64,000 nucleotides of DNA from Spinacia oleracea (taxonomy: Eukaryota > Streptophyta > Magnoliopsida > Caryophyllales > Amaranthaceae): contig NC_079487.1 in the NCBI RefSeq assembly GCF_020520425.1, positions 113,928,141-113,992,140 on the forward strand. Direction: 5' to 3'. The notes below the pieces were generated by a model. It was not told where the DNA came from, searched no databases, and saw nothing but the letters and a program-made list of their open reading frames with translations. Positions 37,051 through 58,667 of the stretch are shown here, one piece after another. The stretch's first letter is position 1, and each line of letters opens with the position of its first letter. The position numbers and the translations under genes are program-made.

Positions 37051-37343
37051 TATATATTTTTTAATATAGGTAAAAACTGGTAAAGTAAAAGCCTTTAACG
37101 AATTGGAATCTTGCACAGTTCAGCACAACCCGGCTAAGTCGGCAATGTCCTTAAAGATTAGAGAGAATAGTAGGAAATTCTCACCTTAAACAGCCCCTAG
37201 TGGGATTTAATATATCTCACGAACACAAGGTTGCAAGATACAAACTTTCATGCTCCATACTAGATAGATGGTACAAGATATGAAAAGAAATTAAAGGAAT
37301 GCAACACTCAAGGAGAAAAGAGAAACAATGAAAATACGAAAAT

Positions 37344-37671
37344 GATAAAGGTCGCAACATGCGACCTTTAAGCCGTGTCACAATGATGATATGGCATGAT
37401 TATGTGTCATGATTTAAATTGGAAACTAAAATATTTAACTTATATAACTTATTATACATGTTAAAAAAATGTAGGAAAATCTTAATATTCTAATTTGTTT
37501 CCTTCTTTACATCAACTATCTTATTTACATATTTTCATAGTAAAAATATTGCATTGATATTAAAAATATTATGATGACGCATAACCTACGTGGCGCCTAT
37601 ATGTACCAATTAAATTCCGACACATAAGATTGCGATAACTAAATGTTGTCGCAACTTGCGACCTTTATCAT
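37344..37671. mobile_element. Small TIR element with GGTCGCAA...TTGCGACC ends
   Basis: The left end GATAAAGGTCGCAACATGCGACC and the right end GTCGCAACTTGCGACCTTTATC are inverted. Each end is also internally palindromic (GGTCGCA/TGCGACC). The interior is AT-rich and non-coding. The class is unknown. Confidence 0.5.
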
Positions 37672-38956
37672 CACCCATGAAAATAATTTTGAGAGTGATA
37701 GGTTAGTCACTCAGTCTATAAAATGACATATGGTTCCTATAAATTTTGTGTAGTGGAAAATAGTTGAAAATTCCTATTCTGAATGTACATGATCTTGATT
37801 CTTACTCCATAGTTCTTATTGCATAATTAAGATATTTACCACCAAAACAAATATTGTTATTAAATTTATGAATAAACATGATGTTCTGGAATGGTTGCAA
37901 TTTTTAATAGCCATTGAAAAATCTTTCTATAAAATAAACTAGTTAGTTATTAACAAAGAATTTTGGAAGGAGTATTAAAGCTTCGAGAAATCGAACACTA
38001 AACATCTATCTATAACTATACTAAAAGAGAAGTCCCTAAAACCTAAGATGACACATGTCGCTCTGTCGTTAAAAAATTTCCCGCTATTTTCCCTTTCCCT
38101 AAATAAATTAACTTAATTAAATAAATTATATACGCCGGTAAGTTTGCACGCAAGAATACAATAATTTAGTTATTACCTAAGTTAAAGAATAATAATTTAG
38201 TATTGCACGTTATTCTATACAGACATATAATTTACTTAAAGCTAAAACTATATGAAGATGGTAAGGCTACGCAACATCACCCATATAATAAAGATGCTAA
38301 GTCTTAACATGTTACTAAATTTAACATGTATACATAATTATACGTTAATAGCTATGTGCTTAATTACGCTTAATCAGATTTGATTGATTAAATATATAAG
38401 CTGACAATAAATATATTTACTATAAGTTGAAGATTTGTGCATATCAAAGAAAATATCGCACCATGGTTGATTTTTACTTTGACCCTTAATATCTCTAATC
38501 GTGTGCAAGTAAAAATTATAAAAAAATAATATTTAGAAAATATATATCCGATATGAATCTAACATGACCCCGCATGACTAAAATTTCCTTACGGACGAAT
38601 CACAAAAAATTGACAAAGTCGTAATGTGAATAGTGTAAAAAATAAATGGTGCGATATTTTCGGGACGGAGGAAGTACTTACTATACGTCAAAGATTTCTA
38701 CACTAAAAAGAAAATATACGGAAATTAATTAAATATAGACATATATATTTTTACGTATACTTAAAATCTAAATATTCTTACGTATATATGTCTATATTTG
38801 TTACAGATTCAGATAATATGATTTTAGGGCCGTGTAATAATAAATTATTGTCGGACAATACTAAATTATACGGAGTATGATTTAGTTATTATTAACTAAG
38901 TTAAAGAATAATTTAATATTGCACGTTATTCTATATAGACATATAAAGCGCTAAAA

Positions 38957-53752: not shown

Positions 53753-53994
53753 TTTGTTCAACGGATTTTTCATGAAATACCCCTCAATTTTCACGAAATT
53801 TACCAAATGCCCCTCGACTTTTAGAAATTCACCAAATGCCCCTCACAAACGACTTAATACCCAGAGTACCCTTACACTTAACGGACGTTAAGTCTCCGTT
53901 AGCATGACTTTACTATTTTGCCCTTATTCCATGACACATTTCAATTCGCATTCTCTCTCTTCTACTTTTAACTCCCCAAACTCTCTCACGAAGT

Positions 53995-54300
53995 AGAAGA
54001 AGGCCGCCGCCGCCGAGAAAGATCCGACTGAGAAGAAGCCAAAGGCCGTCAAGAAGAAGAAGAAGGAAGGAGAAGAAGGTTGTCTCCGTCGCCGAGAAAG
54101 GTCTGACTGAGAAGAAGCCAAAGGCCGACAAGAAGAAGAAGAAGAAGAAGAAGAAGAAGAAGAAGAAGGGAGGAGAAGAAGGTCACCGCCGAGAAAGCCT
54201 GCCGAGAAGAAGCCTGCGGAGATGAAGAAGGCCGCCGTTGGAGACAAGAAGAGCGTCGATACTTGCAATTAAGATCTAAATCTTCAAGGTTCTTAAGCAT
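53995..54300 (+). pseudogene. Captured histone H2B N-terminal fragment
   Basis: The sequence encodes the Lys/Ala/Pro-rich tail typical of plant H2B (AEKDPTEKKPKA, repeated as AEK, LTEKKPKAD), followed by the start of the histone fold. GTCGATACTTGCAA, then AAGATCTAAATCTTCAAGG and TTCTTAAGCA correspond to the H2B region V-E/D-T-Y-K-I-Y-I-F-K-V-L-K. A GAA/AAG trinucleotide run (54129-54170) has expanded within the tail. A 2-bp insertion and an in-frame stop break the fold part, and the rest of H2B is missing. After it, ACATAGATTGAAAATTTCAA is tandemly repeated twice (54298-54360). Confidence 0.75.
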
Positions 54301-54599
54301 AGATTGAAAATTTCAATTGGGTATTTTTCCAACATAGATTGAAAATTTCAATTGGGTATTTTTGAAAACCAATATTGTTGGTTTAATCTGTTCAATATTG
54401 TTGTCTTGTGAGGTAAATTAGTTAAAAAATCGCGTGTTTCATTGAATTTAACTCTTCTTTTGTTAATGGGTTTGCTATAATATCTTTGAATTATGACGGG
54501 AAGCAGACGGATGGCGATGTTTAGGCACAATGTAAAGTCATCAGTTGTGAAGTCTGGAGTACGTACACTGCTGCAACATATACACAGCTTCGAAACTAG

Positions 54600-55100
54600 G
54601 AAAATTCACTACCTTTATAGCAATTTTTTGGTATCACTTGCAGTTCGGACTGATAAATTGATCATCATATTCTGCAATAACTCTGCAAAATGTTCATGGT
54701 TCCTAGTTATGTTTAGCCTATTTTCAATGACAAGTTTTGGCGAGTCTTCCATTTTTCCGCCGAAGGACTCATCGGAGTATCTTACTATGCACTCGTTCTA
54801 CCATATCAAAGCCACTTTCTTCCAAGGACAGTATGATCGATCGTTGTAAAGCCACAATGGCAGCAACCACACAATCTTTGCAGGATGTCGAGTTTAAGTC
54901 CCCGCGACATAGAAAAATACTGTAGACAGTATCATGTGCCTTGTGGCCGTCCATATACGAAGTAATAGTTAAAATTGTTACTACTTATGGAAGCAGTTGA
55001 GGCGAGAGAAACAAATAGTGCCTTGAGATTCATCTCGAATGAGCTATTTGGAAGATACTTTGTTTTACTTGGACATATACTATTTAAATAGATTGGGGCA
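54600..55100 (-). pseudogene. Captured DUF26 (Gnk2-type) cysteine-rich receptor-like kinase fragment
   Basis: On the minus strand, SFEMNLKALFVSLASTAS (about 55040) and then DTVYSIFLCRGD, SCKDCVVAAI (54930-54860) match the DUF26 pattern of N-x-x-F-x-x-NL-x-x-L followed by YGLFLCRGD and C-x-x-C. Further on, NECIVRYSDESF (about 54800) and HFAELLQNMMINL (about 54660) match the end of one domain and the start of the second. The frame changes at least twice (near 54945 and near 54800), so it cannot make a protein. It is a fragment of a CRK ectodomain. Confidence 0.75.
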
Positions 55101-56977
55101 GCTTTAATTTTTTTTTTTTTTTTTTTGGTAAGGAAAGAAAACCCAGGCGGACTACCTGACACCATCCTTTCGAATGGGTGAATTACAATGACTTCGAGCT
55201 AATAACATACTTCTTGTAAAATCGAACGTACAATGAAACTACGCTCTAGCCTCGTACTACCCCAGCCCCAGTTCCAAGAAAACTTGGTGAAAAGACTTTT
55301 CAAAGATATACGATTAGCCGAACGGTATATGATGACGCTCCATCCTCCGGAAGAATACAAACCCGAAGCCAAAGAAAGTACACTAAAAAAATAAATTAAA
55401 AAAAAAAAACTAACTGCACAGCTAACAAAGAAAGTACACTAAAAACTACAAAAAACTAAAAAATGAGGTAATTACAAATACACAAAGTAACTTAGAAACT
55501 CCACGATCCGAAGCAGAGTTGAGTGAAGTATTAATTACTTGTCTGCCAATTATCTAGATGGATCAACTCCATGATTTTGGGAGGTGAATTTACCAAACAA
55601 CTGTAGAGATAATTAAGAAATCCAAAGCTCGAAGGTATCAAGCAATAAAAGTCAGAAGCTCTTTTATTAGTGGAAAGAAAATAGACTGGTAGTGCTCTAT
55701 TTATATTTGTCTTTGAATCCCTCCTAAAACCAGTGATTATTGACATATCAACTTTGTAATTTTGTTGATTACACCACTTCATTGAACAAAGTTATCCTAA
55801 TTGAGTTTTAAAAATCCTGGTTATAACAGATTCAACGAGTATGAATTTAAGGCTTAATGACCTTACCAATACTACTCTTGTTAGGTTGGCCATAAAACTT
55901 GAAGTAATCAGTTAAATGACAGAGATAACAATGAAATAGCAGGACTATAATATGCGACTGAAATGGCGGAACACCCAGAGAACACCCAAAGGTAATTTTT
56001 AGATTTGGGCATTTGGTGAATTATGTTTTAATTTAGGGGTATTTGGTGAAATAATTTACAATATAGGGGCATTTGATGAATTAGAAAGTAGGCTAACGGA
56101 GGACTACACGACGCATCATTAGTAAGGGTAGTTTGGGTATTATGTTAAAGGTGAGGGGCATTTGGTGAATTTCTGAAAGTCGAGAGGCAATTGGTGAATT
56201 TCGTGAAAATTGAGGGGGTATTTCATGAAAAATCCGTTTGTTCAATTGTTGTGTTGGAGGTGAAGTGTGTAATGCAAGAGTGTGTAGCACAAAGGGAGTA
56301 TAATATTCACGTCGCTAGTAAAGAATCCCCGCGTCTTTCTCATGGTTTATGAACAATCAGGTTCTCCCAATTCTCCCAGTTCAGCAAAAGGTTTAAAAAA
56401 AATTCTTACAAGTTTAATCAAGCGCTTATTGCTTTCTAGTGAGTTGGTTTGAAGGAGCTTCTAAAGCTCAATGTAGTAGTGTTTCATACTTTATTTCTAG
56501 TTTGTAATTTTGTTCGTTTAATCTTGTGTGAAAAAAAAATCCCCTTTTATCATCAATTGCGTAGAACACATGAATATTGTCATTCACAAGAACTAAGTTT
56601 GTACAGGCGTACAATCGATGAAGAAATCCTCTATACGTATCTTCTTTTACAGACTACAAAAGATGCGTCATCATGTTTTATCTTATTATCTTAATCACTT
56701 GCAAAAATAACAAAAGAACTATCGGTACAATAACAAACACAAAATTATGCTTAAGACAACACATGCGTTTATATTTAAATTGTCCGTTGATAAATTTTAT
56801 AAACAAAAAATTATACTCCTTAACACTTTCATGATTTCCCATTAGCTCACTGATTTTTGTGTTGACATGTAACATTGTTAATAAATGTCGTGTTAGTTGA
56901 AATTTAGTAAATTGAATTTATTAATACGATGTCAATGTACTTTGAAATTATCATAAACTAATATAATGATCCATTCT

Positions 56978-57187: not shown

Positions 57188-58667
57188 CGGATTTTTCATG
57201 AAATACCCCTGAATTTTTGCAAAATTCACCAAATGCCCCTCGACTTTCAGAAATTCACCAAATGCCCTCCACTTTTTAACAAATGCACAAGATACCCTTA
57301 TTCATAAACTTAATACACAATATGCCATTAATGAAGATTTTCCGTCAGCTCCGTTAACTTTTCCGTTAACTTTTTTCTTAACTAAACTAATTAACTCCTA
57401 ATTAATCTAATTTACTATTAAAAAAAATCAACTGCCAACCCACCACTAACCTTCCTCCTCGCCCCTTTTATCTTCCCTTTCTCTTTCTTCCATGGATCTT
57501 CCCTTTCTCCTTCTTCCATGGATGTCTAATCCCTGCCACACCATCGATATGTCTACTGTCGTCTCCTACCTCGCATGTGCCTGCCTCTGCAACTTCTCTG
57601 ATTTTCTGAGCTTCCTCTCCTCTTTCCCTTACAAATTTTGGGGAAAAAAAATCAAACAAACCCTCACAAGTTCAGGGAACATATGGAGAGAGAACTAAAA
57701 TTCTGGAAATTAAATCAACCATAAATACAATTGGAGAGGAGGAGTGCAATTGGGTTACTTCAACTAATTAATTTACCCTTGGTCCCTTTCAATAACACTG
57801 ACAAAATCCCTCTCATCAATTCCACAGACATTCGAGAATTTCATCTCCAAATTAATCTTCCAAGATATACCTTCACAATAATTGATTTTGATTTCTTGAA
57901 ATTAATGAAGAGGTGATTGAAGCAACAACAACTCATACCGACAACCAACCTGCTGCGGCGGTGCCGAAAAATTGAGAAGGAGAGGAGGTGCATCGGCGGA
58001 AAAAGCAGGGGAAGACGAAAATCGATCGGAGCACAGCCGTAACAGCCGCGGCAAGCGGGTCTTCAATGCAGCCCCACCTCCAATTTTAGTATCACTGTTA
58101 CAGTTTCTGGCAACATATTCACCACCGCAAACTTATAAGCAACAACCATGAAAACAACAACATATGGAAATTCACGATTAACGATGGTGATGATACAATC
58201 AGAGGGATGAAGACCTTGTTTGATGGAGTTGTGATGCACCAGATCAAATCCCGTATATAAGGCTCTGCGAATTGGGTCTGTTTATTTTCATAGGTTGGTG
58301 AAGGGGAGAGGAATAGGAATAGGGGTAGTGAAGGGGATGAGGAGAGAGAAAGGGGATGACCATGGTGGTGACTGCCATGGCTGCCATGGTTTTCATTTGG
58401 GAAAGAGAATGAACGGTAGAGAGAGAGAAAAACACAAGGGATTTTTTATTTTTTATTTTTAATTTAATTAGGATAATTAGATAAGTTAGGAATAATAGAG
58501 TTAATTAGGGGTAAAGTTGACGGTAATCTAACAGAATTGACAGAAAATGCTCATTAAGGGTATCTTGTGTATTTGTTAAAAAGTGGAGGGCATTTGGTGA
58601 ATTTCTGAAAGTCGAGGGGCATTTGGTGAATTTTGCAAAAATTCAGGGGTATTTCATGAAAAATCCG
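57188..58667. mobile_element. MULE of the same family as the Pack-MULE
   Basis: The ends CGGATTTTTCATGAAATACC and its inverted copy are identical to those of the element at 53762. The 9-bp duplication TTCATTCTA lies at 57179-57187 and 58668-58676. TIRs run about 120 bp or more. The interior (about 57420-58440) has CT-rich and GA-rich stretches with short open frames (for example 57468-57659 minus and 58244-58435 minus) that could be captured DNA, but I recognise no gene. No transposase is seen. Confidence 0.88.

Follow-up and report, generated by a model that had tools for sequence, protein, structure and literature searches.

The 2,475-bp element located at positions 53762-56236 of the 64-kb stretch of spinach DNA analyzed here (the window; C1:113928141-113992140) is very probably a non-autonomous Pack-MULE in whose family a histone H2B gene was captured early and amplified in trans, a piece of a cysteine-rich receptor-like kinase (CRK) gene and then a third gene end (X) were added within one lineage, and the captured pieces are non-coding. 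The structure of the element, its likely donors, the nested distribution of the cargo and the copies at different sites were observed in the genome assembly searched (894,210,420 bases in 242 contigs, C1-C6 being the large ones).

The same 9-mer, TTTGTTCAA, flanks the element on both sides (53753-53761 and 56237-56245), a perfect target site duplication (TSD) of 9/9 bases. The left terminal inverted repeat (TIR; 53762-53918, plus strand), delimited by alignment of the ends and by TIR matches, pairs with the reverse complement of 56079-56236 over a gapped homology of about 157 bp, and the 22 outermost bases are without any difference. Both features are those of Mutator-like elements (MULEs), for which long TIRs, commonly of hundreds of bp, and TSDs of 8-11 bp are described in PMC6446971. 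No transposase gene was found in the element: the longest stop-to-stop frame is 119 aa long and runs antisense to the CRK piece, and the Pfam scan covered five stretches of the window. These results bear out the earlier note on this DNA, which had described a Pack-MULE with long TIRs, a perfect 9-bp TSD and no transposase.

Between the TIRs, the element is a mosaic. The H2B-derived stretch (53925-54299, plus strand), delimited by comparison with the donor gene L053, is followed by a segment common to family copies, named Z (54302-54490, plus strand), by a fragment of CRK exon 1 from the DUF26 region with several frame-breaking indels (54489-55114, minus strand), and by a separate dispersed repeat (55115-55645, minus strand) with 93-95% identity to its three best other copies. 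After 14 further bases (55646-55659) comes the family core (55660-55982), about 90% identical to a group of relatives, the L012 group, and then the right end of the element (55988-56236), which includes the right TIR; about 290 bp of the L012-group interior are absent between these two parts. The repeat has a poly(A) at one end and ends before the point where the copies L004 and L007 go on, a comparison from which L005, in the opposite orientation, was left out. A retro-insertion with TSD was considered for 55115-55645 and rejected, since no clear TSD was seen by eye around it. The earlier note had overlooked both this truncated repeat and the sharing of the H2B piece with relatives. Neither gene piece holds the intact reading frame of a functional H2B or CRK gene, stops and frame-breaking indels being present in both; they are taken as non-coding, and a protein role is therefore unlikely.

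The terminal pattern CGGATTTTTCATGAAATACCC was found, with at most one mismatch, 1337 times in forward and 1325 times in reverse orientation in the whole genome, and its reversed control was found 0 times in either, which places the element ends in a large MULE family. Forty loci were examined, 36 of them picked because they match the element or its H2B piece, the other four (L068-L071) by TIR position, and the counts given for them are not genome frequencies. A perfect 9-bp TSD was present in 23/40, a poorer one in 8/40, and no scorable end pair in 9/40. One of these loci, L070 (C1:20790150-20795180), is a 4,981-bp element with the same TIRs and the TSD TATTTAATA, and encodes the domains PF03108, PF10551 and PF04434 (MuDR DNA-binding, MULE and SWIM) across two separate frames. 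These frames are broken, so that L070 is not an intact autonomous copy; a transposase of the L070 kind would move the non-autonomous copies in trans. Movement after capture was demonstrated by the copies L009 and L010, both of which carry the H2B, CRK and third-gene pieces: they are nearly identical (9 substitutions in 2135 sites), and their TSDs differ (TTTATGTAT and TTTGTTTTA). Eight other copies (L012-L018 and L023, the L012 group) contain H2B scraps and a second cargo that is 99-100% identical among them and matches C5:1844030-1845006. A recent burst of this group is suggested by K values of 0.0036-0.0094 among the six copies compared.

The H2B piece was traced to L053, a gene at C6:109681862-109682305 (Pfam Histone, 7.3e-23). 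The two are collinear, with matches at 53925-54135 (70%, 5'UTR and tail), 53989-54056 (92.6%, tail) and 54241-54299 (84.7%, KVLK region), and two more short tail stretches match as well. The piece in the window starts at about -91 in the 5'UTR, runs through the N-terminal tail, which contains internal duplications, and reaches about codon 70 (KVLK); the window copy retains mostly the H2B tail. It has no ATG at the H2B start, its frame is broken, and no Pfam histone match was obtained in the two frames scanned. The H2B gene matches nowhere else in the 64-kb window, and the piece is absent from the flanks of the element. When L053 and its 5'UTR were searched against the genome (best 40 of 55 candidates), many family copies matched from -91 and the other H2B genes only from the start codon or further in, which indicates L053 as the likely donor. 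Among 21 matches of the H2B protein, nine were gene-type by the analyst's reading; identity was 99-100% for five genes, 84-93% for two, 83% for one match with a stop and 45% for another, and the other 12 matches were shorter or partial.

H2B similarity was detected in 34/40 loci examined, 33 of them with family TIR sequence and one (L056) without TIR, and was absent from L068-L071, L024 and L027. As none of the four family copies picked by TIR position has H2B, the H2B carriers may be a minority of the family. In L060-L062, L053 is matched at 81-82% over 367 bp (-85 to codon 94) and at 88-89% over 274 bp (+4 to +276 past the stop), and H2B codons 95-149 are absent. The founding capture probably covered nearly the whole H2B gene and was cut down later. 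A single capture of H2B is suggested by the shared breakpoint; the tree of the left ends, in which the H2B label needs at least three changes, does not show one capture. Additionally, one H2B-bearing copy, L052 (C6:109484000-109487500), lies within a region of H2B genes, about 2 kb from the one at C6:109481600-109482043.

The CRK piece (54489-55114) is 90% identical over about 620 bp (54489-55108) to C6:11312286-11312894 (L028), a locus where a reading frame containing two DUF26 stretches begins (PF01657, 1.9e-33); the captured part falls inside exon 1 of this gene. The comparison of the window piece with the donor gave 48 substitutions in 611 sites and 19 gap columns (K 0.083). One stretch of the piece, 54772-54984 (minus strand), matches PF01657 with an E value of 3.9e-07, a second reached only 0.012 and misses the cut-off, and a third has no match. 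When the donor exon was searched in the whole genome (all 5 candidates scored), it matched itself, the window copy, L009, L010 and a weak 69% stretch at C6:11223926. In the comparison of the 64-kb window with L028, the CRK piece did not extend into the flanks of the element, and positions 5001-9901 of L028 gave four matches elsewhere in the window, none of which falls in exon 1: three are short, and the fourth is a repeat at 37332-37676 with 90% identity. The donor locus is interrupted downstream, at L028 6866-7792, by an insert whose ends are of the CAGGGCCGGCCC type and which shows what looks like an 8-bp duplication, TGTATATG. By these ends we take the insert to be hAT-like, and because of it the donor CRK gene may itself be broken. 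The search in the same genome that the earlier note proposed has thus yielded a likely donor for each of its two host gene pieces, which do lie in opposite orientation (H2B on the plus strand, CRK on the minus strand), and neither piece runs past the TIRs in the window, so the capture it described was not refuted by the flanks.

The order in which the pieces were acquired can be read at the Z segment. Of the 17 places with Z, 16 are at loci counted as family (L056, among these, shows no TIR), and the one outside the family is a 79% match at C4:185883001-185883117. Its boundary continues uninterrupted and without CRK in 12/16 copies read (L022, L044-L052, L056 and L063), and CRK begins there in the window copy (L001), L009, L010 and L011; in the 12 relatives, the interior before the CRK capture is visible. 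At this junction, 4 bp (AATT) are common to the family sequence and the donor. Of 200,000 random pairs of breakpoints, 2.7% have at least four common bases. This one microhomology is weak evidence for template switching. The third gene end, which matches C2:103930321-103930986 (L066) at 80%, sits in L009 and L010 between two parts of the CRK piece, and in L011 the same CRK junction is followed by 13 donor-identical CRK bases and then directly by X. From the nested layout and the junction in L011, it is most likely that CRK came once and that X was copied into the CRK piece afterwards. The CRK lineage hence consists of four copies, three of which also carry X, with the truncated repeat being present in the window copy, where it hides the far CRK breakpoint. 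The earlier note had the element combining H2B and CRK; both are indeed present, but not as two fresh captures, the H2B piece being common to many copies and CRK a later gain of this four-copy lineage.

In the left-end tree, the four CRK rows form one group (97/93; 98% of 200 bootstrap trees). The right-end tree, with 33 of the 39 rows (6 missing) and 7/29 inner branches well supported, leaves the four CRK copies ungrouped, with 2 changes. A separate CRK capture in each of the four copies was rejected because of the shared junction in L011 and the grouping in the left-end tree. No match to X was found in Pfam or in the PDB; it may be a BRAHMA-like C-terminus. In L011, the third-gene piece itself contains an insert whose inverted ends (element positions 1036-1199 and 1832-1995) are 93% identical. 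At a plant substitution rate of about 7e-9 per site per year, the CRK capture would, on a rough reckoning, be several million years old and the split between L009 and L010 would date from a few hundred thousand years ago.

The mechanism of copying, the mobilization in trans and the order of events that we infer from these data can be outlined as follows. A MULE with these TIRs would first have copied the H2B gene, beginning close to the transcription start and ending about 276 bp beyond the stop. The H2B-bearing element would then have been amplified in trans by a MULE transposase, with the H2B piece eroding differently in each lineage. One lineage would have gained the CRK exon in antisense, probably by repair synthesis with a template switch at AATT, the donor staying in place, and a sub-lineage would later have received the third gene end, copied into the CRK piece. 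Separately, the window copy would have acquired the truncated repeat and lost about 290 bp, and its insertion where it now lies would have produced the 9-bp duplication.

How Pack-MULEs take up genes is still disputed. Gap repair with template switching is one proposed route, in an account that calls the mechanism worth exploring (PMC8277862), and co-mobilized neighbors are the competing model, which PMC8903248 puts forward for the Pack-TYPE elements of maize and rice. Under this second model, two MULEs would flank each donor gene and later move as one unit, and close pairs of elements do occur, a second element (57188-58667) lying only 951 bp downstream of the first. Against it, the stretches of the donor loci that were compared (9.9 kb for L028, 3.7 kb for L066 and 3.0 kb for L053) gave no family TIR match, and the TIR matches within the window fall on both element ends, on a subterminal stretch (56007-56080) and on the second element, with none beside the CRK piece. 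Moreover, CRK joins the family interior directly, and X lies inside the CRK piece in L009 and L010. Capture by neighboring insertions is accordingly considered unlikely here, and repair synthesis with template switching likelier, because the donors are in place, their loci are without TIR match and pieces are nested in pieces.

Capture of the H2B piece from an mRNA copy (cDNA) instead of the gene is a still less probable variant of the first step. The captured stretch starts at -91 to -85, near the expected transcription start, with a TATATAA (located by eye) whose first base lies about 25-31 bp further up, as would suit a cDNA. However, no poly(A) run is present in the roughly 30 bases after the captured 3' part of L060-L062, and the donor H2B gene is one uninterrupted frame, so that the sequence cannot discriminate between the two sources; with the CRK piece also lying within one exon, introns are uninformative on capture.

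A present function of the element, through putative antisense or hairpin transcripts giving rise to small RNAs against H2B or CRK genes, is regarded as improbable. The two gene pieces do lie on opposite strands, and captured genes are presented as siRNA reservoirs in maize in a review (PMC13317346), but the divergence of the CRK piece from its donor and the shortness of the H2B matches limit perfect 21-24-nt pairing. Elsewhere in the family, ATG-started chimeric frames with the same end were found in L051 (2344-2706, 121 aa) and on the minus strand of L052 (104 aa). They fuse residues of the H2B tail to a frameshifted stretch rich in arginine, the H2B sequence TYKIYIFKVLK and residues from Z. 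It is conceivable, though highly improbable, that the H2B-bearing family is not passive, and that L051 and L052 might encode a small basic peptide that binds chromatin or, if transcribed in antisense, be a small-RNA source tuning H2B dose. Finally, the idea that the H2B-like stretch is a mere low-complexity AAG/lysine-rich repeat, prompted by its AAG-rich central part and by the two frames without histone match, can be dismissed, since the 5'UTR, the tail and the KVLK region of one gene match collinearly and the sister copies L060-L062 match it, also past the stop, over the lengths given above.

A Pack-MULE with gene scraps is by itself ordinary, and the kind of element is not new, each feature tested being that of a Pack-MULE: the long TIRs, the 9-bp TSD, TIRs in common with an element encoding MULE transposase domains, host gene fragments with identifiable donors and mobility after capture. 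As in other plant Pack-MULEs, a transposase is lacking, copies lie at different sites, and the source loci are unlinked to the element, as PMC8277862 describes. The spinach family differs from them in keeping a visible series of captures, with a histone gene as the oldest cargo seen. In tomato, the PM-ZIBP family is likewise a multi-copy Pack-MULE family of a dicot with an amplified gene fragment, reported in 13 copies with a putative parental gene; it has tandem TIRs and one cargo gene, unlike the spinach lineage with its two to three (PMC3310237). A fungal hAT element, according to PMC6710886, also captured and amplified a core histone gene while the original gene remained, but there the gene is H3 and its hundreds of copies were inactivated by RIP, whereas here a MULE carries H2B. 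Cluster #18 of the maize Zm-Pack-PIF elements shares with the spinach lineage a second gene piece in a subgroup already carrying a first; it belongs to the PIF superfamily, and its 163-bp and 58-bp pieces are ascribed in PMC8903248 to fusion of neighboring insertions. In the open-access literature, no paper was found that joins a Pack-MULE with histone H2B, nor a spinach MULE transposon with H2B. What makes the family useful is that the successive capture steps are preserved together with the donors. One genome keeps H2B only, H2B with CRK, H2B with CRK and the third gene end, the pre-CRK interior and the donors, so breakpoints can be read, and the rival models can be put to the test in spinach and in wild relatives of it. 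The family is also a case of a core histone gene amplified as cargo of a plant transposon, with 33 TIR-bearing copies among the 40 loci examined versus 9 gene-type matches among the 21 of the H2B protein.

The second element in the window has the same terminal motif as the first, with 113-bp TIRs at 99% identity and the TSD TTCATTCTA. When it was compared with 24 other elements, the three best matches listed for each fell in the ends only, and for its interior at least 10 further full-length matches, all nearly identical, were found in the genome (best 40 of 173 candidates).
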